DNA of 60,724 nucleotides from an uncultured Caulobacteraceae bacterium (GCA_903923135.1 CAIXWN010000066.1:1-60724), one strand, 5' to 3'. Shown: positions 4,134-24,693, counted from the stretch's first letter. Numbers and translations are program-made. The notes: generated from the sequence alone by a model not told the origin.

Positions 4134-4144
4134 TTTCAAGCGTT

Positions 4145-4196
4145 TGGAGCCTGATTCAACGTCCGCATCTGTTCCGTGCGAACGGATCAGGCTCCA
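4145..4196. repeat. Second inverted repeat (hairpin 2 of a pair)
   Basis: TGGAGCCTGAT (4145-4155) is a perfect inverted repeat of ATCAGGCTCCA (4186-4196). TCCG (4162-4165) and CGGA (4183-4186) can extend pairing inside. It begins 11 bases after the first hairpin and ends 25 bases before the acyl-CoA dehydrogenase start. The outer motif GGAGC is shared with hairpin 1, so the two may be halves of one mobile repetitive unit. Confidence 0.55.
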
Positions 4197-4221
4197 GGCC
4201 AAATCACAACGGGCTCCGGGA

Positions 4222-5400
4222 ATGGCCGCCATGGGCGACGACATCGAGGACGAGGACCACGAGGCCCTGCGCGAGGGCGTGCGCGCCGTCGTCGCCGGAT
4301 TCGACGACGACTACTGGTACGCCCGCGACGAGGACGGCCTGTTTCCCTTCGAGTTTCACAAGGCCATGGCCCGCGGCGGCTGGCTGGGGATCACCATGCC
4401 CGAGGAGTACGGCGGCGCGGGCCTGGGCGTCACCGAGGCGGCGATCATGATGCGCGAGGTGGCCAGCCACGGCGGCGGCATGGCGGCGGCCTCGTCGGTG
4501 CACATCAATCTGTTCGGGCCCCACCCGATCGTGGTCAAGGGCACGCGCGCCCAGAAATCCCGCTGGCTGCCGCCGCTGATCGCCGGCGAGGACCAGTGCT
4601 GCTTCGGCTTCACCGAGCCGGACGCCGGCCTCAACTCCACCCGCATCAAGACCTTCGCCGAAAAGGTCCCCAGCGGCTACGTCGTCCACGGCCAGAAGGT
4701 GTGGACCTCAACCGCCCAGGTGGCCAACAAGATCATGCTGCTGACCCGGACGACGAAGTTCGAGGACTGCGCCAAGCCCACCGACGGCATCACCATCTTC
4801 TACACCGACCTCGACCGCGCCCGCATCGACGTCCACCGCATCCCCAAGATGGGCCGCAAGGCGGTGGATTCGAACGCCATCTTCATCGACGGCCTGTTCG
4901 TGCCCGAGGAGGACCGCATCGGCGAGGAGGGCAAGGGCTTTTCCTACATCCTCCACAGCCTCAATCCCGAGCGCATCCTGGTGGGCGCCGAGGGCATCGG
5001 CATCGGCTCCGACTGCCTCACCCGCGCCGCCGCCTACGCCCGCGAACGCATCGTCTTCGACCGGCCCATCGGCCAGAACCAGGGCATCCAGCATCCCCTG
5101 GCCGAGAAGTGGATGTATCTGGAAAGCGCCTGGCGAATGGCCCTGCACGCCGCCCGGCTCTACGACGCCGGCCTGCCCTGCGGGGCCGAGGCCAACGCCG
5201 CAAAGTTCCTCGGCGGCCGCGCCGGGCACGACGCCGCCTGGCAGGCCATCGCCACCCACGGCGGCTTCGGCTACGCCAAGGAATACCACGTCGAGCGCCT
5301 CTACCGTGAAGTCGCCATCACCCGCATCGCCCCGATCACCGAACAGCTGATCCTCAGCTTCATCGCCGAGAAGGTCCTCGGCCTGCCCAAGAGCTATTGA
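4222..5400 (+). CDS. Acyl-CoA dehydrogenase
   Basis: This 392-residue flavoenzyme should oxidise an acyl-CoA to the 2,3-enoyl-CoA and pass electrons to ETF. The N-terminal helical domain contains MPEEYGGAGLG. The middle beta domain has CFGFTEPDAG and KVWTSTAQ, the usual FAD/substrate segments, and the C-terminal helical domain has HGGFGYAKEYHVERLYRE. The YEGT-type catalytic Glu of short/medium-chain enzymes is absent (the segment reads RIAPITEQ). A Glu in LNPERILVGAEG aligns with the helix-G base of isovaleryl-CoA and long-chain dehydrogenases. ATG 4222 is used; ATG 4231 has better GGGA spacing and is equally possible. The crotonase gene starts 12 bp after the stop. Confidence 0.9.
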   Translation: MAAMGDDIEDEDHEALREGVRAVVAGFDDDYWYARDEDGLFPFEFHKAMARGGWLGITMPEEYGGAGLGVTEAAIMMREVASHGGGMAAASSVHINLFGPHPIVVKGTRAQKSRWLPPLIAGEDQCCFGFTEPDAGLNSTRIKTFAEKVPSGYVVHGQKVWTSTAQVANKIMLLTRTTKFEDCAKPTDGITIFYTDLDRARIDVHRIPKMGRKAVDSNAIFIDGLFVPEEDRIGEEGKGFSYILHSLNPERILVGAEGIGIGSDCLTRAAAYARERIVFDRPIGQNQGIQHPLAEKWMYLESAWRMALHAARLYDAGLPCGAEANAAKFLGGRAGHDAAWQAIATHGGFGYAKEYHVERLYREVAITRIAPITEQLILSFIAEKVLGLPKSY

Positions 5401-5411
5401 GGCCCCTCGAC

Positions 5412-6164
5412 ATGTCCACCGCCGATATCCTCACCGTCGAACTGACAGACGGCGTCGAGACCGTCACCCTCAACCGCCCCGAGCGCCTCAACGCCCTCAA
5501 CCAGCCCCTCGCCGAGGCGCTGCTGGCCCATTTCGAGGCCAAGAAGCGCGACGCCGAAACCCGGGTGATCCTGCTGCGCGGGGCCGGCCGCGCCTTCAGC
5601 TCGGGCGCCGATCTCAAGGCCGGCGGCCAGCCCGACCGCCTGCGGGACGGCCCGCACGGCGACTGGGGCCTGCGCGACCTGCTGCGCGCCATGCGGCGCT
5701 GCCCGCAGCCCGTCGTCGCCCTGGTCCACGGCGCCGCCGCCGGCGGCGGTCTGGCCATCGCCCTGGCGGCCGACATCATCGTCGCCGGCGAGACCGCCGC
5801 CTTCCACCCGGCCTTCATCAAGATCGGCCTGTCGGGCTCGGAACTGGGGGTCAGCTGGCGCCTTCAGCGCACCATCGGCCTCTCCCGCGCCCGCGAGATG
5901 CTGCTCACCGGCCGGCCGATGCTGGCGGACGAGGCGCTGCGCACCGGCCTGGTCGCCTCGGTGGTCCCGGACGCCGGCCTGCTGGCGCACGGCCAGGGCC
6001 TGGCCGCCGACATGCTGAAGGCCGCGCCGGACGCCCTGCGCATCTCCAAGCGCACCTTCGACGCCACCCTGGAGATCGCCGGCTTCGACACCGCCCTCGA
6101 ACTGGAGGAGCGCGGCCAGATCCAGATGATCCGCGCCGGCGCCGCCGCCCGCGCGGCGTCCTGA
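5412..6164 (+). CDS. Enoyl-CoA hydratase/isomerase family protein (crotonase fold)
   Basis: The protein has 250 residues. Oxyanion-hole motifs are present: FSSGADL near residue 60 and HGAAAGGGLAIAL near residue 105. Neither of the two catalytic glutamates of classical hydratase is in place: GGGCE reads GGGLA, and QPEIL reads HPAFI. An acidic residue in GLSGSELG is where isomerases and related crotonase enzymes often carry their base. It is likely co-transcribed with the acyl-CoA dehydrogenase 11 bp upstream, so it acts on an enoyl-CoA, but hydration should not be assumed. The stop abuts the convergent synthetase stop in the palindrome TGATCA. Confidence 0.88.
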   Translation: MSTADILTVELTDGVETVTLNRPERLNALNQPLAEALLAHFEAKKRDAETRVILLRGAGRAFSSGADLKAGGQPDRLRDGPHGDWGLRDLLRAMRRCPQPVVALVHGAAAGGGLAIALAADIIVAGETAAFHPAFIKIGLSGSELGVSWRLQRTIGLSRAREMLLTGRPMLADEALRTGLVASVVPDAGLLAHGQGLAADMLKAAPDALRISKRTFDATLEIAGFDTALELEERGQIQMIRAGAAARAAS

Positions 6165-7751
6165 TCAGATCCTGCGATCGCGGCCGGCCCACCAGGGCGC
6201 CCGCAGCGGGGCCTTGAGGATCTTGCCGGCGGCGCTGCGCGGGATGACGTCGATGAAGTCGAAGCTCTTGGGGGCCTTGTAGCGCGCCAGCTTCGCCTGA
6301 CAGTGGGCGCGCAGGTCGTCCTGCAGCGCCGCGTCGGCCGCGACGCCCTCGCGCAGCTGCACCACCGCCTTGACGTTCTCGCCGAACTCCTCGTCCGGCA
6401 CGCCGATCACCGCCACGTCGGCCACGGCGGGATGCTCGTTCAGCACCCCCTCGATCTCGGCCGGATAGATGTTCACCCCGCCGCTGATGATCATGTCGAT
6501 CTTGCGGTCGGTCAGCCACAGATAGCCGTCGGCGTCGATCCGCCCGACGTCGCCGGTGGTGAACACCCCCGGCTCCAGATGCGCCGCGGCCGTCTTGGCC
6601 GCGTCGTTGTGATAGCTGAACCCCGCGCCGGAGAGGTTGCGGAAATAGAGCACGCCCTCGCCGCCGTCGCTGACCCGCCCGCCGTTGTCGTCCACCACGA
6701 TCGCCTCGACCATGGGCGAGGGCCGGCCGACGCTGCCGCCCTTGGCCAGCCAGTCCTCCGAGCTGATGGTCGAGATGATCGAACCCTCGGTCGAGCCGTA
6801 GTATTCGGTGATCTTCGGACCCCACCAGTCGATCAGCGCCCGCTTGACGCCGGGCGGGCAGGGGGCGGCGCCGTGCCAGACCCCCACCAGCGAGCCGCCG
6901 TCGAACCGCGCCCGGGCCTCGGCCGGGGCGTCCAGCAGGCGCTTCATCTGGGTGGGCACCAGATGCAGGTTGGTCACCTTGTGGCGGTCGATCACCGCCA
7001 GGGTCTCGGCGGCGTCGAACCGGTGGCGCATGACGATCGACGCCCCGGCCAGCAGCGGCAGGAAGGTGAACGCCCACTGGGCCGAGTGGTAGAACGGCCC
7101 GCACAGCAGGGCCCGGCCCGAGGGCGGGACCATCTGGGCCACCCCCGCCGCCACCGCCTGCATCACCTCCGGCGGCAGGTTCGCCCCGCCCGACAGCATG
7201 CCGCGCACGCCCTTGGGCCGTCCGGTGGTGCCGGAGGTGTAGAACATCGGTCCGCCCAGCCGCTGCTCCGCCGGCTCGTCGGCCGACGCTTCGGCCAGCA
7301 GGGCCTCATAGGCCACCTGCCGACCATCGCCCGCCAGCTCGCCCAGTCCGCCGCCGGCCGCGTCGGCGACCCCCACCACCAGGCTCACCGCCCGCGCCCG
7401 CGGGTCGGCCAGGGCGGCGGCCACCGTGGCGGCGAAGCGATGGTCGGCGATCACCGCCCGGGCCCCGGCGTCCTCGATCAGATAGGCCAGCTCGTCGGCC
7501 ACGAAGTGCCAGTTGGCCGGCACATAGGTCCAGCCGCCGTGGCAGCAGGCCAGGGCGATCTCGAACCATTCCCGGCAGTTGCCCGCCACCACCACCAGGG
7601 TGTCGCCCGCCGTCAGCCCCCGGGCCCGCAGGCCGTTGACCAGGCGGTTCACCCGCGCGTCGAGGGCGGCCCAGGCTGTCTCGCCCGCCTCGTCGATCAG
7701 GGCGATCTCGTCGCCGCGCCGAGCCGCGAATCCCGCCGTCAGTGTCGCCAT
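6165..7751 (-). CDS. Acyl-CoA synthetase (AMP-forming, ANL superfamily)
   Basis: The 528-residue enzyme should activate a carboxylic acid to its CoA thioester through an acyl-adenylate. Visible motifs are the P-loop YTSGTTGRPKG near residue 175, EYYGSTEG near 315, TGDVGRIDADGYLWLTDR near 400-415, and the C-terminal catalytic lysine in SAAGKILK. Its stop touches the stop of the convergent crotonase gene, and its substrate probably feeds the neighbouring acyl-CoA dehydrogenase and crotonase. It is divergent from the aldo/keto reductase across a 167-bp gap. The acid it uses cannot be told from sequence. Confidence 0.9.
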   Translation of the reverse strand: MATLTAGFAARRGDEIALIDEAGETAWAALDARVNRLVNGLRARGLTAGDTLVVVAGNCREWFEIALACCHGGWTYVPANWHFVADELAYLIEDAGARAVIADHRFAATVAAALADPRARAVSLVVGVADAAGGGLGELAGDGRQVAYEALLAEASADEPAEQRLGGPMFYTSGTTGRPKGVRGMLSGGANLPPEVMQAVAAGVAQMVPPSGRALLCGPFYHSAQWAFTFLPLLAGASIVMRHRFDAAETLAVIDRHKVTNLHLVPTQMKRLLDAPAEARARFDGGSLVGVWHGAAPCPPGVKRALIDWWGPKITEYYGSTEGSIISTISSEDWLAKGGSVGRPSPMVEAIVVDDNGGRVSDGGEGVLYFRNLSGAGFSYHNDAAKTAAAHLEPGVFTTGDVGRIDADGYLWLTDRKIDMIISGGVNIYPAEIEGVLNEHPAVADVAVIGVPDEEFGENVKAVVQLREGVAADAALQDDLRAHCQAKLARYKAPKSFDFIDVIPRSAAGKILKAPLRAPWWAGRDRRI

Positions 7752-8899: not shown

Positions 8900-9558
8900 G
8901 GGCCGGCGCCGCTTTCGCCCGGGGCCCGGCCGGTCACCACGGTCAGGGGGTCGCTTGCCCAACCCTCCGACAGCCGATGGGTCTCGATGGCCAGGAACCC
9001 GGCGCGCCGCAGATACAGCTCCACCAGTCGCGCATGGCCGCGGGCGTCCAGGGCGCGCCACACCGCCACGGCCTTGCTGGGGAAGCAGCGGTTGGAGAAG
9101 CTGATCGCCAGGGGCGCGCCGGGCCGCAGCACGCGCGCCAGATCGGTGAGCACGGCGTGCGGTCGCTGCAGGTACTGCACGGCGACGCAGATCATCGCCC
9201 CGTCGACGGACGCCGTCTCCAGGGGCAGGGCCGGATCGCGGTTCAGGTCCTGGACGAAGCGCCGGGTCAGCCGCGGATTGGCCGCCAGTTCCTCGGCGTT
9301 CATGCCGTGGCCGATCACCTCGCCATAGGCCACGTCGTCCGGCAGATGGCTGACCCAGCTGCTCATCAGGTCCAGCAGCGCGCCGCCGGGCGGCAGGATC
9401 CGGCGGTAGAACGCGGTCAGGGCGCCGATGGCCGCCTCGTCGATATGGGTCACCAGACGCGCCTCGGCGTAGAACGCCGCGTCGTCGCCGCCGTCGACCC
9501 TGGCGAAGGCGCCGGGCGGCAGTTCGGGGAAGGCGGGGTCGGCGGGGTCGGCGGTCAT
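8887..9558 (-). CDS. Class I SAM-dependent methyltransferase-like protein
   Basis: The 223-residue product has a glycine-rich SAM-binding segment after LPPGGALLDLMSSWVSHLP. It also has an acidic motif II in ASVDGAMICVAVQYL and the ARVLRPGAPLAISFSNRCFP loop typical of Rossmann methyltransferases. The classical ExGxGxG motif I is degraded to LDLMSSW. I chose ATG 9558 because translation further upstream gives Arg-rich, unconserved sequence that would overlap the divergent ABC gene. The methyl acceptor is unknown. The family contains many SAM-binding proteins of unknown role. Confidence 0.8.
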   Translation of the reverse strand: MTADPADPAFPELPPGAFARVDGGDDAAFYAEARLVTHIDEAAIGALTAFYRRILPPGGALLDLMSSWVSHLPDDVAYGEVIGHGMNAEELAANPRLTRRFVQDLNRDPALPLETASVDGAMICVAVQYLQRPHAVLTDLARVLRPGAPLAISFSNRCFPSKAVAVWRALDARGHARLVELYLRRAGFLAIETHRLSEGWASDPLTVVTGRAPGESGAGPHQA

Positions 9559-9623
9559 GCGCCCCAGACTAGGGCCACGCCGCCGCGCGCGCGAGACCCC
9601 GGCCGCCGGCAGGGGCGCCGCCC

Positions 9624-11405
9624 ATGGCCGTGACCGCTCCGCCATCCGGCGGGCCCGGTTTCGGCGCCCTGCTGAAGGCCTATCTGGCTCCCCAGGCCCC
9701 GCGGGTGGCGGTCCTGGCGGCCTTCCTGTTCGCCGGTATCGCCCTGCAGCTCATCGGGCCCCTGGTGCTCAAGCGCTTCATCGACAACGCCGCGCCGGGC
9801 CCCGACGCCCTGCCGATGACCACCCTGTGGGGTCTGGCGGGGGTCTATATCGCCGCCGCCCTGCTCACCCAGGGCGCCCAGATCGGCACGGCCTGGTTCA
9901 GCGAACAGGTGGGCTGGACGGCCACCAACCGCCTGCGTAGGGATCTCGCCGGCCATTGCCTGGGCCTGGATCTCACCTTCCACAACGCCCGCACGCCAGG
10001 GGAGCTGATCGAGCGGATCGACGGCGACGTCACCGCCCTGGCGACCTTCTTCTCGCAGTTCGTCCTGCAGATCCTCGGCAGCGTGCTGCTGGTGGCGGGA
10101 ATCCTGCTGCTGATCGCCCTGCACGACTGGCGCATCGGCGCGGCCATGACACTGTTCGCCGTCGCCGCCGCCCTGGCCATCAGCCGCACGACCCAGATCG
10201 GCGCTCCGCGCTGGGCGGCCGAACGCCAGGCGCGCTCGGACATGTCGGGCTTCCTCGAGGAGCGGCTGGGCGGGCTGGACGACATCCGCGCCAACGGCGG
10301 CGGGGCCCACGTCATGCGTCGCCACGCCATGCTCAGCGACGTCCTGGGCCTCGCCGGCCGCCGCGCCGGGCGCATGGGCCTGGCCATCAACACCGCCGTC
10401 AACGGCCTCTACACCCTGGGCCTGGGCATCACCCTGATCGGCGGGGTGATCCTGTTCCAGCGCCACGAGGCGTCCCTGGGCACGGTCTATCTGTTCGTCC
10501 AGTACACCGGCATGCTGGCCATGCCCCTGGCCCAGATCGGCATGCAGCTGCAGCAGTTCCAGTCGGCCGGCGCGGGCCTGGGCCGCATCCGCGAGCTCCA
10601 GGCCATCACCTCGCGGATCGCCGGCGGTCCGGGCGTCGCCTGGCGCGCCGCCTCGCCGGGCGTCGAGTTCCGCCATGTGACATTCGCCTATGAGGGGCGG
10701 GCCGCGGCCCTGAAGGACGTCTCCTTCGCCCTCGCCCCGGGTCAGACCCTCGGCCTGCTCGGCCGCACCGGCAGCGGCAAGTCGACCCTGATCCGCCTGC
10801 TGTTCCGTCTCTATGAGGTCAACGAGGGGGCGATCCTGATCGACGGCCAGGACGTCCGCGCCGCCACCCTGGAGCAGCTGCGCGCCCGCATCGGCGTGGT
10901 CACCCAGGAGGTGCAGCTGTTCGAGGCCAGCGTGCGGGACAACATCACCCTCTTCGATCCGGCCATCGCCGACGGGCGCATCCTCGAGGTGCTCGAGGAC
11001 ATCGGCCTGGGCCCGTGGCTGCGGCGCCTGCCCGCCGGCCTGGACAGCGACCTGACCGCCGGAGGGCTCTCGGCCGGCGAGGCCCAACTCCTCGCCTTCG
11101 CCCGGGTGTTCCTGCGCGACCCGGCCCTGGTCGTGCTCGACGAGGCCTCCTCGCGCCTGGACCCGGCCACCGACCGGCTGATCGAACGGGCCATGGACAA
11201 GCTGCTGAACCCCGATCCCGGCCGGCCGCCGCGCACAGCCATCATCATCGCCCACAAGCTCGCCACCGTGCGGCGGGCGCACCGGATCCTGATCCTCGAC
11301 CATGGCCGGGCGGTGGAATCGGGCGACCGGGCCTCCCTGGCCGCGGACCCTCAGTCCCACTTCGCCGGCCTGCTGCGCTCGGGCCTGGAGACGGTGCTGC
11401 AATGA
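9624..11405 (+). CDS. ABC exporter half-transporter, subunit 1 (catalytic Walker B)
   Basis: The 593-residue protein fuses a six-helix membrane domain (about residues 20-310) to an ATPase domain. Walker A is GRTGSGKS (380-387), the Q-loop is in GVVTQEVQLF, Walker B ends LDEAS with catalytic E507, and the switch His lies in IIIAHKLA. The signature motif is altered to LSAGE (482-486). Such changes are typical of one partner of a heterodimeric type IV exporter. The gene overlaps the next half-transporter by ATGA, so the two are translationally coupled. Cargo is unknown. An AGGGGCG precedes the ATG. Confidence 0.9.
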   Translation: MAVTAPPSGGPGFGALLKAYLAPQAPRVAVLAAFLFAGIALQLIGPLVLKRFIDNAAPGPDALPMTTLWGLAGVYIAAALLTQGAQIGTAWFSEQVGWTATNRLRRDLAGHCLGLDLTFHNARTPGELIERIDGDVTALATFFSQFVLQILGSVLLVAGILLLIALHDWRIGAAMTLFAVAAALAISRTTQIGAPRWAAERQARSDMSGFLEERLGGLDDIRANGGGAHVMRRHAMLSDVLGLAGRRAGRMGLAINTAVNGLYTLGLGITLIGGVILFQRHEASLGTVYLFVQYTGMLAMPLAQIGMQLQQFQSAGAGLGRIRELQAITSRIAGGPGVAWRAASPGVEFRHVTFAYEGRAAALKDVSFALAPGQTLGLLGRTGSGKSTLIRLLFRLYEVNEGAILIDGQDVRAATLEQLRARIGVVTQEVQLFEASVRDNITLFDPAIADGRILEVLEDIGLGPWLRRLPAGLDSDLTAGGLSAGEAQLLAFARVFLRDPALVVLDEASSRLDPATDRLIERAMDKLLNPDPGRPPRTAIIIAHKLATVRRAHRILILDHGRAVESGDRASLAADPQSHFAGLLRSGLETVLQ

Positions 11406-14139: not shown

Positions 14140-16119
14140 ATGATGTCTTCCATCCGATCGCGGACTCCGCCGGAACTTGCGCCGGCTCTCTGCCTGGCGC
14201 TCGCCGCGCTTTCGGCCTGCTCCCGTCCGGCGGCCCCGCTGGCGGCGTCGCCCGACCGGGAGTGGCCGTTCTACGGCGGCGACGCCGGAGGGCAGAGGTT
14301 CTCTTCCGCCGACCAGATCACCCCGGCCAACGTCCGCGACCTGAAGCCGGTCTGGCGCTTCTCAACCGGCGCGGCGAGCATTCGCGCCGACGCCCTCCGG
14401 CACGCCGCCTTCGAGGACACCCCGATCATGGCCGGCGGCCGGGTCTATGTCTGCTCGCCGTTCAACGCCGTCTTCGCCCTCGATCCGGCCACCGGCCGGG
14501 CGCTGTGGTCCTACGATCCCCGCATCGATCCGACGGTCCGCTACCCCAATGAGGATGTCTGTCGCGGGGTGGCCTACTGGCGCGATCCCGCGCCCGCGCC
14601 CGGCGCGCCCTGCGCCGAGCGCCTCTTCACCAACACCAATGACCGGCGGCTCATCGCCCTGGACGCCGCGACCGGCCGGGCCTGCCCCGGGTTCGGTCAG
14701 GGCGGGACCGTCGACGTCGGCCGCGGCCTGGTCCTGCAGCGGCCCGGCCAGATGCAGATCACCTCGCCGCCGGTGGTCGCCCGCGGGGTGGTGATCGTCG
14801 GCTCGTCCATCGACGACAATCAGCGGGTCAGCGAGATCTCCGGCGCCGTCCGGGCCTATGACGCGCGCACCGGCGCGCCGAAGTGGTCCTTCGATCCCCT
14901 GGCCTCGGCCAGACCGGCCATTACCGCCGGGGCCGCCAACGTGTGGGCCCCGATGTCGACGGACGAGGCCCGCGGCCTGGTCTTCCTGCCCACCACCAGC
15001 CCCAGCCCCGACTTCTGGGGCGGCCTGCGCCAGGGAGACGACGGCGACGCCGATTCGGTCGTGGCGCTCAACATCGAGACCGGCGCCAAGGTGTGGGCCT
15101 TCAAGACCGTCCATCACGACGTCTGGGACTATGACAATCCGGCCCAGCCCACCCTGGCCATGGTGGCCTGGCGCGGGGTCGCGCGGCCGGCCGTGCTGCA
15201 GCCCACCAAGCAGGGCCTGCTGTTCACCCTCAACCGCGACACCGGCGCGCCGGTGATTCCGGTGGAGGAGCGGCCCGTTCCCCAGGGCGGCGCCCCGGGC
15301 GAGACCCTGAGCCCAACCCAACCGTTCCCCACGGCGCCCCGGCCGCTGGCCCCCAGCGTCATCCGCCCGCAGGACGCCTTCGGCCTGGGACCCTGGGAGC
15401 GCGACCAGTGCCGCCGCAAGATCGCCGCGGCCCGGCATGAGGGGCTGTTCACGCCCCCCTCCCTGCAGGGCACCATCCTCTATCCGTTCACCGGCGGCGG
15501 CGTGAACTGGGGCGGGCTGGCCTTCGACGCCGGCCGGCAGGTGGCCTATGTCAACACCTCCAGCGCCATGCACCTGGTCACGCTCATCCCGGCGGCCAGG
15601 GTCAGGGCGGCCAGGGCGGCCGAGCCCGATGTGGAGATCTCGCCGCAGACCGGCGCCCCGTTCGGCATGCGCCGCGAGGTGATGCGCTCGGGCCTCGGCC
15701 TGCCCTGCAATCCGCCGCCCTGGGGTCAGCTGCACGCCGTCGACATGCGCACCGGGCGGATTCTCTGGGAGGTTCCCCTGGGTACGACCGAGGATCTTGC
15801 CCCCGGCAGCCAGTTCCTGCTGCGCGGCGCGGGCGCGCCGAATTTCGGCGGCCCGATGACCACCGCGTCGGGTCTGGTGTTCATCGGCGCGGCCATGGAC
15901 AACTACCTTCGCGCCTTCGACGGCGCCACCGGCCGTCAGGTCTGGCGCGGCCGCCTGCCGGCCGGCGGCCAGGCCACGCCGATGACCTATGTCTGGCTGG
16001 GCCGGCAGTATGTGCTCATCGCCGCCGGCGGCCACGCCAAGTCGGGCACGAAGCGGGGCGACCAGATCGTCGCCTTCGCCCTGCCGGGGACGCCGCCCGC
16101 CTACCGCCCCTTGCGATAG
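14140..16119 (+). CDS. PQQ-dependent dehydrogenase, predicted lipoprotein
   Basis: The 659-residue quinoprotein has an eight-bladed propeller of the membrane glucose dehydrogenase type. It begins WPFYGGDAGGQRFSSADQI and contains repeated W-motifs such as TGRALWSYD and TGAKVWAFK, the segment VHHDVWDYDNPAQP, and a GGVNWGGLAFD blade. It has no N-terminal membrane domain of the Gcd kind. It carries a signal peptide with lipobox LSAC (Cys27), so it should be lipidated and face the periplasm, passing electrons to quinone or a cytochrome. No pqq biosynthesis gene is in the window. Substrate (glucose or another polyol/alcohol) is unknown. It overlaps the convergent acyl-CoA dehydrogenase by 19 bp. 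Confidence 0.9.
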   Translation: MMSSIRSRTPPELAPALCLALAALSACSRPAAPLAASPDREWPFYGGDAGGQRFSSADQITPANVRDLKPVWRFSTGAASIRADALRHAAFEDTPIMAGGRVYVCSPFNAVFALDPATGRALWSYDPRIDPTVRYPNEDVCRGVAYWRDPAPAPGAPCAERLFTNTNDRRLIALDAATGRACPGFGQGGTVDVGRGLVLQRPGQMQITSPPVVARGVVIVGSSIDDNQRVSEISGAVRAYDARTGAPKWSFDPLASARPAITAGAANVWAPMSTDEARGLVFLPTTSPSPDFWGGLRQGDDGDADSVVALNIETGAKVWAFKTVHHDVWDYDNPAQPTLAMVAWRGVARPAVLQPTKQGLLFTLNRDTGAPVIPVEERPVPQGGAPGETLSPTQPFPTAPRPLAPSVIRPQDAFGLGPWERDQCRRKIAAARHEGLFTPPSLQGTILYPFTGGGVNWGGLAFDAGRQVAYVNTSSAMHLVTLIPAARVRAARAAEPDVEISPQTGAPFGMRREVMRSGLGLPCNPPPWGQLHAVDMRTGRILWEVPLGTTEDLAPGSQFLLRGAGAPNFGGPMTTASGLVFIGAAMDNYLRAFDGATGRQVWRGRLPAGGQATPMTYVWLGRQYVLIAAGGHAKSGTKRGDQIVAFALPGTPPAYRPLR

Positions 16120-17426
16120 TCGACGTCGTCCCAGGTGATCGCCGAGAGCTCCTTCTTCCTGGGGCCCATGTAGCCGAACAGGAAGGCCGCCACCTTGCGC
16201 ATCTGGATCTCTTCCGACCCTTCGGTGATCCGGTAGCGACGGTGGTGGCGATAGATGTGCTCGAAGGCCTTGTGGCGGGAATAGCCGATGCCGCCGTGCA
16301 CCTGCATCGCCCGGTCAGCCGCCTCGCAGCACAGGCGGTTGGCCCAGTAGTTGCACATCGAGACCTTGTCGGAGATGCGCTTTTCCACCTCGGGGTGGGG
16401 CATCTGGTCCATCTCCCAGGCGGTCTTGCGGATCAGCAGGCGCAGCATCTCGCACTGGGTGGCCAGCTCGACCAGAGGCCACTGGATCGCCTGGTTGTCG
16501 CTGAGCGGCTTGCCGAAGGGCTTGCGGGCGCGGGCGTACTTGACGCTCTCGTCGATGCAGTAGAGCGCAGCGCCGAGGGAGCCGGCGGCCTGGCGAATGC
16601 GGTTCTCGTGCACGAAGGACTGCGCCAGGGGCAGGCCGCCCTCCGGCGGGCCGAACATCGCCGTCTCCGGGACCCACACGTCCTTGAACGACACCCTCGG
16701 GTGGTCCGTGGGCATGTTGAAGGTCCACAGGTACTGCTCGACCTCGACCCCTTCGGACTGGGCGGGCACCAGCAGGCAGGTGATCCCCTTGGCGGCGCCG
16801 TCCTCGCCGGATGTGCGGCAGAACAGGGCGCAGTGGGTGGCGTGGTGCATGCCCGTCGTCCACATCTTCTCCCCGTTGATCAGGAAGCCGGGGACGCCAT
16901 TGCGGCTCTCCGGAACGGCCCGGGTCTCCATGTGGGTGGCGTCGGAGCCGTGGTACGGCTCGGTCAGGCCGAAGGTGACGCGCCGTGTGCCCTCCAGCAG
17001 CCCAAAGATGAACTCCTCCTTCTGCGCCTGGGTGCCGAAGTCGCGGAACATGACGATGAAGGGGTGGTTGCCGACGATGGCGTGCTCGTTCTGTTGGTCG
17101 TAGTGCAGGCCCAGACCCTTGCGGGCCAGGTGCTCGCGGATCACCGTCATCCACAGGTTCGAGCCGTCCTTGCCGCCGAACTCGGCCGGCAGACAGAAGC
17201 GGTAGTGGCCGGCCTTGTCCGCGCGGCGCTTGGCCTCGCGCATCAGCGCTTCCCACTCGGGGCGCGGCAGACCGTTGTTGTCGAAATCGGTGCGCGCCCA
17301 CTCCCGGCGATGATCGAAGAAGCGGATGTTGTCGTCCTGCAGCTCAAGCGGCTTGATGTCGGACTCGATGAAGGCGTCCAGTTCCGCCAGATAGGCGGTC
17401 AGGTCGGCGGGGATGTTGAAGTCCAT
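16101..17426 (-). CDS. Acyl-CoA dehydrogenase family protein, LvaC/ACAD11-like
   Basis: The 441-residue flavoprotein has the ACAD fold: FGLTEPYHGSDATHMET (FAD/substrate), EKMWTTGMHHATH, QVHGGIGYSRHKAFEHIYRHHRRYRITEG. The base Glu is retained as E402 in TEGSEEIQ. It is the last gene of an operon whose preceding genes encode a DUF6285 protein and an APH-type kinase. That order matches LvaA-LvaB-LvaC of Pseudomonas putida, where LvaC converts the 4-phosphoacyl-CoA made by LvaAB to an enoyl-CoA. It also matches the fused human ACAD10/ACAD11. I infer elimination of phosphate rather than simple dehydrogenation. GAGGAAAC lies just before the ATG. Confidence 0.88.
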   Translation of the reverse strand: MDFNIPADLTAYLAELDAFIESDIKPLELQDDNIRFFDHRREWARTDFDNNGLPRPEWEALMREAKRRADKAGHYRFCLPAEFGGKDGSNLWMTVIREHLARKGLGLHYDQQNEHAIVGNHPFIVMFRDFGTQAQKEEFIFGLLEGTRRVTFGLTEPYHGSDATHMETRAVPESRNGVPGFLINGEKMWTTGMHHATHCALFCRTSGEDGAAKGITCLLVPAQSEGVEVEQYLWTFNMPTDHPRVSFKDVWVPETAMFGPPEGGLPLAQSFVHENRIRQAAGSLGAALYCIDESVKYARARKPFGKPLSDNQAIQWPLVELATQCEMLRLLIRKTAWEMDQMPHPEVEKRISDKVSMCNYWANRLCCEAADRAMQVHGGIGYSRHKAFEHIYRHHRRYRITEGSEEIQMRKVAAFLFGYMGPRKKELSAITWDDVDYRKGR

Positions 17427-17438
17427 GGCGGGGTTTCC

Positions 17439-17843
17439 TCAGGCGGGCGTGTCGGTGGCGTCGGCCGCGGCCTTGACGGCGGCGGCGCGGCGATAGGTGG
17501 CGTAGTTCGGCTGGTCCACGGCCAGGGTGTCGAGGGTCGTGGCCCAGAGGTGGTCGATCAGGGCCGGGTCGGCGGGGTCGATCTCTCCGGCGGCGATGCG
17601 CGCGCAAAGCGCGTCCTCAAGGTCGGACAGGGGCCCGTCCGCGCCCAGCAGCGCCTTCAGCCGCTCCGCCTCGCCGGCCACGGCCGCCGGGCCCAGGGCC
17701 AGTTCCCGCCGGACCATCTCCAGCACGTTCACCGCCACCCGGGCGTGAAAGGCCAGGCGGCCGGTCAGGGTCGGCGAGACCTCGTCGCGCAGGAAGCCGG
17801 CGACGGCTCCCAGCAGTTCGCTGGCCGTGGGTTGATCATACAA
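17439..17843 (-). CDS. DUF6285 protein, LvaB-like kinase partner
   Basis: The 134-residue all-helical protein has the family pattern YDQPTASELLGAV, FHARVAVNVLEMVRREL and a C-terminal DTLAVDQPNYATYRRA. Small DUF6285 proteins sit between APH-family kinases and acyl-CoA dehydrogenases in many genomes. In P. putida the equivalent LvaB is needed with LvaA for 4-hydroxyacyl-CoA phosphorylation. The start is TTG 17843, eight bases inside the kinase gene, because the family N-terminus (M-x-D-x-P-T-A) aligns there and no ATG is available in frame. The overlap implies translational coupling. It ends 13 bp before the dehydrogenase start codon. Confidence 0.82.
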   Translation of the reverse strand: MYDQPTASELLGAVAGFLRDEVSPTLTGRLAFHARVAVNVLEMVRRELALGPAAVAGEAERLKALLGADGPLSDLEDALCARIAAGEIDPADPALIDHLWATTLDTLAVDQPNYATYRRAAAVKAAADATDTPA

Positions 17844-18846
17844 GGGGACGCCCTCCGGGTGGGGCCAGCATGGACAGCAGATCGATCTCGGTCTCCGAGG
17901 CGCGCCGGCCGATGGCCGCCTTCTCCACCGACCGCTCGCCTGCCTGGAACTCGCAGGCCATCATGGCGCAGCTCAGGCCCCAGCGCAGGGTGCTCATCAC
18001 CTCCCAGAACCGCGCGCGATCCCGGTCCACCGGCTGGCCGGACACCGACTCATAGCCCGCCCAAAGCTCCTCGCGGGCGCCGAAGCCGCCGGCGGGCCGG
18101 TCGATCTCGCCGAACCGCCAGGAGGGGGTGCAGATCCAGCCGAGGTCATAGAGCGGGTCGCCCAGGTGGACGACCTCCCAGTCGAGCACCGCGCGCAGCC
18201 CCTCGGGGCCGACAATGATATTGCCGGTGCGCATGTCGCCGTGCACCACCTTCGGCTCGGCCTCCCTGGCCGGCCGGTTCTCGCGCAGCCAGCGGAAGGC
18301 CCACTCCACCACCGGCCGTCGCCCGCCGTTGGCCCGGTAGAGGGCGTAGGCGCCGTCCAGACTGCTCTCGATCGTCGACACCCGCAGGGGGCCGGCGCTC
18401 GCCGGGTCGATCTGGTGGATGCGCGCCGCCGCGGCGCCCATCTGCCAGGCCAGGCGCGGCCGGGCCTCGGCGTATTCCGGATCGCGCAGGATCCGCCTCG
18501 CCAGGGTCTCGCCCGGGATGCGCGTCATCAGGAAGCCCGATCCCAGGGCCTCCTCCGGAGCGAACACATGCACGACCTCGGGAACCGGCGCGCCCGTGGC
18601 CCGGGCCAGTTCGATCAGCCGCGCCTCTGTCTCCATGCCCGCGGCGTTCTCCCGCTTGACTGTGCCGCCGGGATTGCGCCGGAGGATCAGTTCGCGCCAT
18701 CCGTCCGGGGTCTCGACATCGAACGCCCAGAGCTCCTGGCTGGCGCCGCCGGACAGCCTCTGCAGGCCCTCGACGCGCGCGCCCGGGCCGAACCGGCGGC
18801 TGACCGACGCCGAGAGCGCCGCGACGAACGTCTCATCGGCCGACAT
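17836..18846 (-). CDS. APH-family phosphotransferase, LvaA-like hydroxyacyl-CoA kinase
   Basis: The 336-residue kinase has the aminoglycoside phosphotransferase fold. The catalytic loop is HGDMRTGN (H202, D204, N209) and the metal-binding loop is LDWE (D222), followed by LGDPLYDLGW. A glycine-rich loop RLSGGASQELW lies at 30-40. The genomic setting, not the fold, gives the role: it lies between an acyl-CoA synthetase and DUF6285/ACAD genes, so antibiotic resistance is unlikely. The probable substrate is a 4-hydroxyacyl-CoA. Its ATG shares one base with the synthetase stop (TGATG), and it overlaps the DUF6285 gene by 8 bp, so all four genes form one unit. Confidence 0.87.
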   Translation of the reverse strand: MSADETFVAALSASVSRRFGPGARVEGLQRLSGGASQELWAFDVETPDGWRELILRRNPGGTVKRENAAGMETEARLIELARATGAPVPEVVHVFAPEEALGSGFLMTRIPGETLARRILRDPEYAEARPRLAWQMGAAAARIHQIDPASAGPLRVSTIESSLDGAYALYRANGGRRPVVEWAFRWLRENRPAREAEPKVVHGDMRTGNIIVGPEGLRAVLDWEVVHLGDPLYDLGWICTPSWRFGEIDRPAGGFGAREELWAGYESVSGQPVDRDRARFWEVMSTLRWGLSCAMMACEFQAGERSVEKAAIGRRASETEIDLLSMLAPPGGRPLV

Positions 18847-20399
18847 CACAGGTCCTCCAGGATCAGCAGGCCGGCGGCGATCTGGTCGCGCAGTTCGCGC
18901 TTGAGCACCTTGCCCGATGCGTTCTTCGGCAGGACGTCGATGAACACCACGTGGCGCGGTTTCTTGTAGCCGGCGATTTCCTCGCGGCAGAACGCCACCA
19001 GATCCGCGCCAGTCACGGCGTGGCCGTCGCGGACGCAGATCACGGCCACCACCTTCTCGCCCCACTTGGGGTCGGGGGCTCCGATGACCGCCGCCTCGAC
19101 CACGGCCGGGTGGCGGTACAGCGCCTCCTCGACCTCGCGGGGATAGACGTTCTCGCCGCCGGTGAGGATCATGTCCTTCTTGCGGTCGACGATATAGAGG
19201 TAGCCGTCCCCGTCCCAGCGGCCCACGTCGCCGGTGTGGAACCAGCCGTCGGTGAAGGCCGCGGCGGTGGCCTGGGGATTGCGCCAGTAGCCGCTCAGCA
19301 CCTGATCACCCTTCACCAGGATTTCGCCGGCCACGCCCGGCGGCGCGTCGACGCCGCTCTCGTCGATCACCCGCACGCGCGCCAGTGGCATCTGCCGGCC
19401 CACCGAACGCAGGATCTCCAGACCCTCCTCGGCGGCGCGATCGTGGTCGGCCCGGCCCATGGTCATGACGTTGCCGCTCAGTTCGGTCATGCCGAAACCG
19501 GTGGAAAAGGCGATGCCTGGCCAGCGCGCGCGGGCCCGTCGCAGCACCTCGCCGGGCATGGCCGCGGCCCCGTAGCCCAGCCGACGCAGGGATGAGAGGT
19601 CGTACCGGTCGGTCTCGGGGTTCTCCAGCAGCATGGCCACCATGGTGGGGGCCATAGCCGTGTTGGTCACGCCGTAGCGTTCGACGTTGGCCAGCAGGGT
19701 CGGCGGGTCGAAGCTCCGTAGCAGCACCAGCGGGAAGGCCCGCAGATGATGCATCGGCATCACATATCCGGCCACGTGGAACATCGGGAAGGTGAACATG
19801 CACACCTCCTCGGTCCCGCTCTCCCAGGCGGTCATGCTGTTGAGAATGCCGGCCAGCAGATTCCTGTGGGTCAGCATCGCCCCCTTGGGCAGGCCGGTGG
19901 TTCCTGATGTGTAAAGCAGCCAGCAGAGGTCGCTCTCCTGCGGTCGCCGCCCGGGCTCGACCGCCGCGCCGGCATCCCGGAACGCCGCATAGCTCCCGGC
20001 GTCCTCCGCCTCGCCGTCGATCAGCAGGATCCGTTCGACCGAGGGGATGAGGTGGCGGATTTGTCGAATGGCCGGCAGGTATTTCGCCTCGACCACCAGG
20101 ATGCGCGGCTCGCTGTCGCCGATGATGTAGGCTAGTTCCTTCGGCGCCAGGCGGTAGTTGAGCAGGGTGAGCGCCAGGCCTGCGCCAGGCGCGCCGTAAT
20201 AGCAGTCGACATATTCGGGGCAGTTCTCGGCCAGGATCGCCACGCGGTCGCCCGGCTCGGTGACCGACATCAGGGCGTTGGACAGCCGCCAGCACCGGTC
20301 GCGGAGCTGCGCGTAGGTGATCCTCTGGTCCTGGAAGATGATCGCCGGCGTGTCCGGCGCGTGGTGCGCGGCGAGCATGGGCACATCGCTCAGCAGCAT
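18846..20399 (-). CDS. Acyl-CoA synthetase, first gene of the LvaEABC-like operon
   Basis: This 517-residue AMP-forming ligase carries the P-loop LYTSGTTGLPKGAM near residue 165, the FGMTELSG motif, WFHTGDVGRWDGDGYLYIVDR near 390, and the catalytic lysine in NASGKVLK. It is the promoter-proximal gene of a four-gene set that continues with a kinase, DUF6285 and ACAD. By analogy with LvaE it should load a hydroxy- or keto-acid onto CoA to start the pathway. CTGGAGGACGCC before the ATG is a strong ribosome binding site. A palindrome at 20449-20464 lies in its promoter region. The acid it uses is not known. Confidence 0.9.
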   Translation of the reverse strand: MLLSDVPMLAAHHAPDTPAIIFQDQRITYAQLRDRCWRLSNALMSVTEPGDRVAILAENCPEYVDCYYGAPGAGLALTLLNYRLAPKELAYIIGDSEPRILVVEAKYLPAIRQIRHLIPSVERILLIDGEAEDAGSYAAFRDAGAAVEPGRRPQESDLCWLLYTSGTTGLPKGAMLTHRNLLAGILNSMTAWESGTEEVCMFTFPMFHVAGYVMPMHHLRAFPLVLLRSFDPPTLLANVERYGVTNTAMAPTMVAMLLENPETDRYDLSSLRRLGYGAAAMPGEVLRRARARWPGIAFSTGFGMTELSGNVMTMGRADHDRAAEEGLEILRSVGRQMPLARVRVIDESGVDAPPGVAGEILVKGDQVLSGYWRNPQATAAAFTDGWFHTGDVGRWDGDGYLYIVDRKKDMILTGGENVYPREVEEALYRHPAVVEAAVIGAPDPKWGEKVVAVICVRDGHAVTGADLVAFCREEIAGYKKPRHVVFIDVLPKNASGKVLKRELRDQIAAGLLILEDL

Positions 20400-20497: not shown

Positions 20498-22171
20498 TCA
20501 GAAGTGGCCGGCCCGGAGTTCACGTTTCAGCAGCTTGCCCGTCGCCGTTCGGGGAAGTTCGCCGGTGGTCAGGCGGATGGCCGTCGGGATCTTGAATCGG
20601 GCCAGACGGCCGGCGAGGCTGTCGCGGATCGCGTCGGCCGTGGCGGGCGTGTCGTCCGCCGGATCCACCTGGATCACCGCCGCCACCTCCTCGCCCAGTT
20701 CCGGGTGGGGCAGGCCGATCAGGCCGACGTCGCGGACTGCGGCGTGCTCCAGAATGACCGCCTCGACCTCGGCGCAATAGATGTTCTCGCCGCCGCGGAT
20801 GATCACGTCCTTCTTGCGATCGACCACGAAGTGGAAGCCCTCGTCGTCGACGAAACCCAGGTCGCCGGTGCGGAACCAGCCGCCGCCGAACGCCGCCTCG
20901 GTGGCCTCGGGATTGTTCCAGTAGCCGGGAATGACGTTGGACCCGCGGATCCACAGTTCGCCGATGTCGCCGCGCGGCACGTCGGCGCCGTCGTCGTCGA
21001 CAATCCGGATGTCGGCGGTCACCACGGCCCGGCCGATGCTGTCCGGACGGGCGAGGTAGTCCGCGCCGCCGTTGGTGATCACCGCGCTGGTGGTCTCGGT
21101 CAGGCCATAGCCGTTGCCCGGCGCGGCCTTGGCCTGGAACTGATCGCCGATGCGTCGGATCAGGTCGGGCGGCACAGGCGCGCCGCCGGAGGTGACCCCC
21201 ACGAGAGAACTCATGTCCGCGCCCATGGCGTGGGCGGTCTCCAGCAACTGCCGCACCACGATCGGCACGCCGGAGACGGATGAGAGGCCATGGCTCTGGA
21301 TCAGCCGCACCGCTTCGGACGGCGCCCACCTGTACATCATCGCCACCTTCGCGCCGGTGGCGACGCTCAGATACAGGCCGGTCAGGCCGCCGATGTGAAA
21401 GAACGGGAAGGTCTGCAGCACGCCGGACTGCGGCGCGTCGGGATCGGCCTCGGCCGGCAGGCCGCCGATGATCCGCGCCACGGTTCCCGCCAGCAGGGTG
21501 TTCATCAGATTGGTCATGTGGTTGCGCTGGGTCGCCATCGCCCCCTTGGGATTTCCGGTCGTCCCGGACGTGTAGAGGATGGTGGCGAGGTCGGAGGGGC
21601 CGACGTCAACATCGGGCAGGTCCCGCGCCGGTCCGGCGATGATCTCGGCGAAATCGGCGCCGCCGGCGCCGGCGTCGCCGCGGCGGGTGACCACCACCGT
21701 TTTCAGTCCGGGGCGCGACAGCTGGTCATTCAGCCGCTCAAGGCGTTCGCCGTCGATGATCACGGCCGCAGGAGCCGAATCATCCAGAGCGTAGGTCAGT
21801 TCGGCCGTTGTCCACCAGGCGTTGAGCGCCACGACGATGGCGCCGATCGACTGGCAGGCCCAGAAGGCCACGCTCCACTCGGGATAGTTGCGCATGCCGA
21901 TGGCGACGCGGTCGCCTTTGCGCACGCCCCGGTCAATCAGATGATGGGCGAGGGCCGCAGCCTGGGCGTGGTGCTGGGCGTAGGAAAGGCTCTCCTCGCC
22001 AAAGACCGCGAAGGTCCGCGCGCCGTGGCTGCGGGCGCCCTCGAGCACCTGCCGAAACGACTGGGGCGCGTTTCGGTAGACGCGCACGGGATGGCCGGCC
22101 GAATGGTCGTTCGCCAGCTCGAAGGGGCCGGCCGCGGTCAGGGCCGCGATGATTTCCTCGCGAGAGGGCAT
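20498..22171 (-). CDS. Acyl-CoA synthetase (AMP-forming)
   Basis: The 557-residue ligase is distinct from its downstream neighbour. Motifs: ILYTSGTTGNPKGAM near residue 200, GNGYGLTETTS near 350, WFRTGDLGFVDDEGFHFVVDRKKD near 425-445, and the C-terminal lysine in TATGKLLK. A 98-bp gap with its own palindrome separates it from the LvaEABC-like operon, so it may be transcribed separately. The GGAAC-type inverted repeat 45 bp upstream of its start could control it. Together with the SnoaL-like and VOC proteins upstream it suggests breakdown of a carboxylic acid of some complexity, but the substrate cannot be named. Confidence 0.9.
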   Translation of the reverse strand: MPSREEIIAALTAAGPFELANDHSAGHPVRVYRNAPQSFRQVLEGARSHGARTFAVFGEESLSYAQHHAQAAALAHHLIDRGVRKGDRVAIGMRNYPEWSVAFWACQSIGAIVVALNAWWTTAELTYALDDSAPAAVIIDGERLERLNDQLSRPGLKTVVVTRRGDAGAGGADFAEIIAGPARDLPDVDVGPSDLATILYTSGTTGNPKGAMATQRNHMTNLMNTLLAGTVARIIGGLPAEADPDAPQSGVLQTFPFFHIGGLTGLYLSVATGAKVAMMYRWAPSEAVRLIQSHGLSSVSGVPIVVRQLLETAHAMGADMSSLVGVTSGGAPVPPDLIRRIGDQFQAKAAPGNGYGLTETTSAVITNGGADYLARPDSIGRAVVTADIRIVDDDGADVPRGDIGELWIRGSNVIPGYWNNPEATEAAFGGGWFRTGDLGFVDDEGFHFVVDRKKDVIIRGGENIYCAEVEAVILEHAAVRDVGLIGLPHPELGEEVAAVIQVDPADDTPATADAIRDSLAGRLARFKIPTAIRLTTGELPRTATGKLLKRELRAGHF

Positions 22172-23481: not shown

Positions 23482-24693
23482 CTACATCCGGGCCGCCGCG
23501 CGGCCGGCCGCCAGGGCCAGGAAGATCGCCGGGGCGACGATCAGCGCCCCGAGGAAATAGGGTCCGTCTACGAACGGGATGGAGAACACGAAATAGGCCA
23601 CCTGTGGTCCCGCCACCCGGGCGAAGGCGCCGGTGGCGTTGTTGAACCCCATGATCTGGCCCTGGTTATCCTCGTCGATGGCGCGCGACATCAGCGCGCC
23701 GGCGTTCGGGAAAGCCACGGAAGAGCAGAGCGCGGTCATCGCCATCAGGGCGTAGGTGGTCCAGCCGCCGTTGCCGAACGGCTGCAGCGCCATGGCGATC
23801 ACCGTGCCCACCATGCCCACCGCCAGCATGCGCGCCTCGCCGAAGCGGCGCGAGAGCGTGCCGGTGAGCAGGAACTGCGTGGGGGCCGAGACGATGCCGG
23901 CGATGCCAAAGCAAAGGCCGACATCCCGCGGCTGCCAGGCATAGCGATGCTGGGCCCACAGGCCGAACACCGATTCGATGCCGTTGAAGGCGAAGCCGAC
24001 CATGAACGTCAGCAGCATCAGCCGGCCCACCACCGGATGGCGCACGGCGTAGCGGATCATGGCAAGACGCGTGGGCGGGTTCGGATCCGGAACGCGGATC
24101 TTGCGCGTCTCGCGCACGATCAGGGCGATGCCCATCGCCGAACACGCGGCCAGCACCGAGGCGGCCAGAAGCGGGATCTGGAAGCCGATGGTTCCGGCGG
24201 AGGGCTTGGCCAGGAATCCGCCCGCCACCGGGCCCAGGATGAAGCCGATATTGTAGGCGGCGCCGAGGGTGGCCATGCGGCTGGCCCGATCCTCCGGCGC
24301 CGTCACGTCGGCGATGTAGCCCTGAACCACCGAGCCGTTGCCGGCCCCCAGTCCGCCGACCAGACGGATCAGGAAGGCCATGTAAATGTTCGGCGCGAAC
24401 GCCAGGGCGCCGTAGCAGAGGCAGTTGGCCAGGGTGGTGCAGACCAGGATCGGCTTGCGCCCGATGCGGTCCGACAGTCGGCCCCAGAACGGCTCGCCGA
24501 AAAACGAGCCGATGGGATAGGCTGAGAAAACCAGGCCCATCTGCCAGGGAGCGGCGTGGAACGAGGCCCCATAGAAGGGCAGCAGCGGCACGACGATGCC
24601 GAATCCCAGGATGTTGATGAACGTCACCGACAGCAGGGTGTAGAGAGCCCAGGCGGAGCGCCGGGGCGACGGGGCGTCGGCCTGGGGGGTCAT
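23482..24693 (-). CDS. MFS transporter (DHA1/TetA-like drug:proton antiporter)
   Basis: The 403-residue protein has 12 predicted membrane helices. Motif A between helices 2 and 3 is GRLSDRIGRKP, and the first helix contains ILGFGIVVPLLPFY, both typical of TetA and related effluxers. Motif C-like glycines are in NIGFILGPVAGGFL in helix 5. It probably exports a small hydrophobic compound at the inner membrane. It stands alone; no regulator is adjacent. Tetracycline specificity cannot be inferred from these motifs. Confidence 0.88.
   Translation of the reverse strand: MTPQADAPSPRRSAWALYTLLSVTFINILGFGIVVPLLPFYGASFHAAPWQMGLVFSAYPIGSFFGEPFWGRLSDRIGRKPILVCTTLANCLCYGALAFAPNIYMAFLIRLVGGLGAGNGSVVQGYIADVTAPEDRASRMATLGAAYNIGFILGPVAGGFLAKPSAGTIGFQIPLLAASVLAACSAMGIALIVRETRKIRVPDPNPPTRLAMIRYAVRHPVVGRLMLLTFMVGFAFNGIESVFGLWAQHRYAWQPRDVGLCFGIAGIVSAPTQFLLTGTLSRRFGEARMLAVGMVGTVIAMALQPFGNGGWTTYALMAMTALCSSVAFPNAGALMSRAIDEDNQGQIMGFNNATGAFARVAGPQVAYFVFSIPFVDGPYFLGALIVAPAIFLALAAGRAAARM

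Follow-up and report, generated by a model that had tools for sequence, protein, structure and literature searches.

Only recently has a chemistry been assigned to the pairing of a hydroxyl kinase with an acyl-CoA dehydrogenase (ACAD), namely for mammalian ACAD10/11 and for a single bacterial operon (Lva). The P. putida lva genes, which serve the use of levulinate and 4-hydroxyvalerate, are laid out in the order lvaR-A-B-C-D-E, and the 12 kDa protein LvaB binds the kinase LvaA, growth on levulinate requiring both (PMC6692424; the lva facts used here are drawn from this paper, PMC12440821 and PMC11342911). In mouse ACAD11 the phosphate-handling site comprises R626, H634, R637 and the catalytic D753, and it is common to LvaC (PMC12440821). 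A further APH-fold hydroxyl kinase of a catabolic pathway, the 25-hydroxysteroid kinase (25-HSK) of Sterolibacterium denitrificans, partners a still unknown phosphate lyase (PMC8449060). The substrate of 25-HSK is a free sterol, and no DUF6285 protein is known for it.

The locus described here lies in a stretch of 60,724 nucleotides from an uncultured Caulobacteraceae bacterium, hereafter the window. It shares with LvaA-LvaB-LvaC an LvaA-type kinase, a DUF6285 partner, an adjoining ACAD and an acyl-CoA synthetase (ACS) in the cluster, and with ACAD10/ACAD11 and their bacterial homologues the logic of a kinase plus an ACAD domain. The locus works like the LvaAB kinase module, yet it falls outside the LvaABC/ACAD10-11 system, since the ACAD feature that defines this system was tested for and is absent. 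It would thus appear to be not a copy of the levulinate/ACAD10-11 pathway but a widespread variant, one whose parts are annotated merely as phosphotransferase, DUF6285 and generic dehydrogenase.

Gene content and order

A sequence-only reading had described an LvaEABC-like operon of four coupled minus-strand genes at 16101-20399, coding for an ACS, a kinase, a DUF6285 protein and an ACAD, and both the coordinates and the Pfam matches agree with this gene content (Table 1). Two of the junctions that it described are borne out, namely the TGATG that joins the ACS stop to the kinase start, thereby fixing the length of the kinase, and the 8-bp overlap of the kinase end with the DUF6285 gene, whose TTG start at 17843 is supported by homologues that begin MQDxP. 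The gap between the DUF6285 and ACAD genes, given as 13 bp, is instead 12 bp (17427-17438). The order ACS-kinase-DUF6285-ACAD differs from the A-B-C-D-E order of lva and, in keeping with the earlier remark that an lvaD-like reductase is not adjacent, neither an lvaD-like SDR nor an LvaR-like sigma-54 regulator was found among the scanned window neighbours of the kinase-DUF6285-ACAD trio.

Table 1. Genes of the locus and its neighbours within the window
Gene product	Coordinates	Strand	Remarks
Acyl-CoA synthetase (ACS)	18846..20399	-	517 aa; Pfam AMP-binding (E 4e-86) and C-terminal domain
APH-fold kinase, putatively LvaA-type	17836..18846	-	336 aa; Pfam APH (E 3e-37)
DUF6285 protein, putative LvaB-type kinase partner	17439..17843	-	134 aa, TTG start; Pfam DUF6285 (E 1.8e-35)
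Acyl-CoA dehydrogenase (ACAD), putative third class ("class C")	16101..17426	-	Pfam Acyl-CoA_dh (E 4e-43)
Second acyl-CoA synthetase	20498..22171	-	Pfam; 98-bp gap to first ACS
MFS transporter, a possible uptake component of this cluster	23482..24693	-	Pfam MFS_1

The second ACS gene is probably on the same transcript as the four genes. In the nearest relative (L161) the gene order is kept, with the first ACS at 84% identity; the second ACS adjoins the four genes (86% identity), and the MFS transporter adjoins both ACS genes (88%). From the neighbouring ACS and MFS genes, the substrate would seem to be an organic acid that is taken up by the cell. Across public loci, an ACS lies within 2 kb of the class C ACAD in just 11 of 80 cases, so the first ACS is regarded as lineage-specific, and its candidacy as a core component of the module was rejected.

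Other genes of the window surround the locus. A PQQ-type quinoprotein dehydrogenase gene on the plus strand (14140-16119) converges on the end of the ACAD gene with a 19-bp overlap, and additional acyl-CoA dehydrogenase, enoyl-CoA hydratase and acyl-CoA synthetase genes are found at 4144-7751. In L160, counterparts of this ACAD and hydratase are retained close to the trio, as is that of an aldo/keto reductase lying nearby.

The kinase and its DUF6285 partner

The kinase residues H202, D204, N209 and D222 (numbering of the 336-aa protein), already pointed out in the sequence-only reading, are all present; of these, D204, N209 and D222 do not vary in any of 78 class C-linked relatives. In a quick maximum-likelihood tree with long branches, every kinase classed as DUF6285-linked, including that of the window and that of an lvaABCDE-ordered operon, falls on one side, and the ACAD10/11-type kinases, mouse ACAD11 and PDB 3dxp among them, fall on the opposite side, the separating branch having a length of 2.06 and a support of 100. 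The kinase had been regarded as distinct from true aminoglycoside enzymes, and it indeed groups with the DUF6285-linked kinases and apart from them; its assignment as LvaA-type, separate also from the ACAD10/11 kinases, is thus supported by the tree. The Pfam APH domain would also suit an antibiotic (aminoglycoside) phosphotransferase lying beside unrelated fatty-acid genes; this is extremely improbable given the score of 33 bits with the NCBIfam APH(3') profile, whose cut-off is 205, the kinase tree and the strict tie to DUF6285 and the ACAD.

In a Foldseek search with the model of a fused kinase-DUF6285 protein, 25-HSK (9ft5, 9fsg) ranks straight after 3dxp and above true APHs. This close fold match could point to a dehydration, at the expense of ATP, of an alcohol that is hindered or tertiary, as with 25-HSK, the phosphate being removed by the ACAD homologue or by an unlinked lyase. 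Such a reaction is rather unlikely here, as the sequence similarity of the window kinase to 25-HSK is weak (E 3e-4) and the linkage to ACS and ACAD genes speaks for a CoA thioester, whereas 25-HSK uses free sterols. A hydroxyacyl-CoA is the likely substrate of the kinase. The CoA-contacting residue R176 of ACAD11 is missing in nearly all DUF6285-linked kinases, which would fit a substrate-binding role of DUF6285.

The identity of DUF6285 is indicated by an operon of another genome (G387, L063), where a divergent sigma-54 regulator, a kinase, a DUF6285 protein (118 aa), an ACAD, an SDR and an ACS follow the order lvaR-A-B-C-D-E, with DUF6285 in the place of LvaB. Judged by this operon position, DUF6285 is very probably LvaB. 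Kinase and DUF6285 form a single polypeptide at 21 of the 80 class C loci (L228 8564-9904 and 20 more among L160-L239); these natural fusions, mostly of 440-510 aa, are found in sphingomonads and relatives. AF2 modelling predicts the two domains of the fusion to be packed together (pTM 0.86) and DUF6285 to be a five-helix bundle (pLDDT 94). A search of this fold against the PDB gave no match with E <0.001, and a literature search on DUF6285 found no paper. In L161, a Caulobacteraceae MAG, the DUF6285 gene occurs twice in tandem (9044-9364 and 9357-9743) with identical N-termini, which represents either a duplication or an assembly artefact.

Active-site residues of the class C dehydrogenase

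The window ACAD was compared with known enzymes in an alignment of 59 ACAD10/11-type, 9 LvaC-type and 95 distinct window-type (class C) sequences. The positions of R626, H634, R637 and the Asp base of ACAD11 are occupied by R/H/R/D in 59/59 ACAD10/11-type and 9/9 LvaC-type enzymes, whereas class C has F, Q, S or G, and E, each in 95/95 (F271, Q279, G282 and E402 in the window ACAD). Accordingly, R..GRIHHCMR with Asp is present in 59/59 ACAD10/11-type sequences and 0/95 of the window family, and the window ACAD likewise lacks the R..ARLTHCMR and Asp base found in the LvaC type. As helix motifs served to sort the classes, the motif counts are partly by construction, while the Asp/Glu split and the change of R626 to F lie outside the window-type sorting pattern. 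None of the four hallmark residues occurs in any class C member (0/95), and the HCMR motif is absent. By sequence, the window ACAD lacks the LvaC/ACAD10-11 hallmark and would represent a third ACAD class.

These residues divide the claims of the sequence-only reading. The proposed base E402 is present; as an LvaC-like feature it does not stand, for it is the conventional-ACAD Glu at the position of MCAD E376 and sets the window ACAD apart from LvaC because the LvaC/ACAD10-11 base is Asp. Similarly, the statement that the locus has the same parts as LvaA-B-C and ACAD10/11 applies to the putative LvaA-type kinase and LvaB-type DUF6285 and fails for the ACAD, and phosphate elimination as in LvaC/ACAD10-11 finds no equivalents of R626, H634, R637 and Asp in the window enzyme. 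A genuine LvaEABC-like system, with an ACAD that removes a 4-phosphate by the very mechanism of LvaC and ACAD10/11, would agree with the identical kinase-DUF6285-ACAD order and the LvaA-type kinase; given the replaced hallmarks and the lack of an SDR or LvaR-like regulator among the scanned neighbours it is very unlikely, and the LvaC/ACAD10-11 mechanism is refuted for the window ACAD at the sequence level. After this residue comparison, gene order was rejected as a sufficient ground for transferring the mechanism of LvaC.

In the same alignment class C keeps the MCAD-like M188, W189, T191, Y398, Glu402 and R276, matching in conventional ACADs (MCAD, CarC) the Glu at MCAD E376 and the equivalents of Arg256, Trp166, Thr168 and Tyr372. 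In contrast to MCAD and CarC, it has invariant residues of its own in the pocket region (N275, R278, Q279, D110 and E114), an N-terminal DDNxRFFDHRRE segment and the strict tie to kinase-DUF6285. In particular, R278 is invariant in 95/95 class C sequences, and Arg or Lys occupies this position in 0/41 other sampled ACADs. N275, R278 and Q279 fall on the helix that in ACAD11 carries R626/H634/R637, and the acidic D110 and E114 correspond to positions close to the acyl pocket of MCAD, where they would be unfavourable to a phosphate. Sequence conservation within the family is strong (64-76% identity). Against the PDB, the window ACAD scores higher with CarC (143 bits) than with ACAD11 (84 bits), and in the ACAD tree class C stands weakly beside the HCMR-type (ACAD10/11- or LvaC-type) enzymes (support 94, branch 1.5). 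Literature searches returned no biochemical data on any class C member and nothing specific on fitness or degradation for this gene set. The window's own genome also codes for an ACAD that is intermediate between the classes (L047 14064-15230, G000:C188; RLGTRRLEMAAW...YDGPTEV), with an R626-type Arg and the Asp base and without the HCMR motif.

Linkage, distribution and proposed reactions

In 60 of 80 public loci, the class C ACAD has a kinase and DUF6285 at a distance of no more than about 2.1 kb, and the window's own genome holds, on another contig, a second, diverged kinase-DUF6285-ACAD trio (L048 1769-4479, G000:C269), which has no adjacent ACS and whose ACAD is 76% identical to that of the window; the arrangement is thus far beyond chance. 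Enoyl-CoA hydratase-family genes are the next commonest neighbours (32/80 loci), and public genomes hold at least 581 candidate relatives. Within the phylum, class C ACADs occur in 30 of 398 genomes, all 30 of which have DUF6285 (the G301 copy being fused), including 10 in which kinase and class C ACAD are far apart; with relatedness not removed, the Fisher p for this co-occurrence is 7e-37 by genome and 8e-21 by genus. DUF6285 is found in 40 genomes altogether, and since an LvaC-type ACAD is present in each of the 10 without class C (adjacent in 8, elsewhere in 2), class C and LvaC-type ACADs look like alternatives for one kinase unit. In contrast, the ACAD10/11-type ACADs have an adjacent kinase in 15 sampled loci and DUF6285 in none, their kinases forming a separate group.

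We tentatively propose, with somewhat less than even confidence, a module for the breakdown of a carboxylic acid that is hydroxylated or derived from a lactone, in which kinase-DUF6285 is followed by the class C ACAD. We infer the substrate and each chemical step as follows. The adjacent ACS would ligate the acid to CoA; the LvaA-type kinase, with DUF6285 (LvaB) as an obligatory docked subunit, would phosphorylate the hydroxyl of the acyl-CoA; and the class C ACAD would convert the phosphorylated product to a 2-enoyl-CoA that enters hydratase and beta-oxidation reactions. The ACAD step would differ from that of Lva and ACAD10/11 because of the ACAD residues. As the leading possibility, Glu402 would take the alpha-proton and phosphate would be lost with the assistance of the rebuilt polar set N275/R278/Q279, an ordinary ETF-linked dehydrogenation being almost as likely. 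Direct action of the class C ACAD on the product of the kinase is slightly favoured; that it eliminates phosphate without net oxidation is put forward with more reserve; and more speculative still is the idea of a third phosphoacyl-CoA-processing flavoenzyme, with a Glu base, the relocated R278 and a substrate class other than 4-hydroxy acids. The proposal is favoured by the kinase's place in the DUF6285-linked clade, the LvaB position of DUF6285, the 30/30 co-occurrence, the fusions and the invariant R278. Against it stand the absence from class C of the published phosphate-handling residues and Asp base, and the presence of M188, W189, T191, Y398 and Glu402, which are typical of redox ACADs.

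A further point against the proposal is that an ACAD10/11- or LvaC-type ACAD could remove the phosphate in trans, at least one such HCMR-type enzyme being present in 30/30 class C genomes. The window's own genome has an orphan LvaC-type ACAD beside a ribosomal-protein operon (G000:C169:15133-16242, L268 15049-16275, RLAPARLTHCMR) and three orphan ACAD10/11-type ACADs (C39, C124, C262) with no kinase in the flanks covered. These enzymes keep alive a model of separate steps, in which class C, in line with its MCAD-like active site, would be a conventional ETF-linked dehydrogenase of a polar acyl-CoA. We consider this model somewhat unlikely, because the HCMR-type ACADs are solely ACAD10/11-type in 21 of the 30 genomes, because ACAD10/11-type ACADs elsewhere pair with their own non-DUF6285 kinases, and because DUF6285 is strictly tracked by class C and not by an HCMR enzyme.

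With the proposed kinase-DUF6285-class C module, the LvaA-LvaB kinase unit would be paired with a class C ACAD more often than with the LvaC type (30 of 40 DUF6285 genomes sampled). Knowledge of its function would account for a catabolic module frequent in Bradyrhizobium and in the orders Sphingomonadales and Caulobacterales, and a substrate-binding role of the DUF6285 subunit would thereby be put to the test. An operon on Thermus thermophilus HB8 pTT27 (L086 3871-6998) comprises an LvaC-type ACAD, a kinase, DUF6285 and a histidine phosphatase; the lva cluster of P. citronellolis likewise has a histidine phosphatase (PMC6692424).
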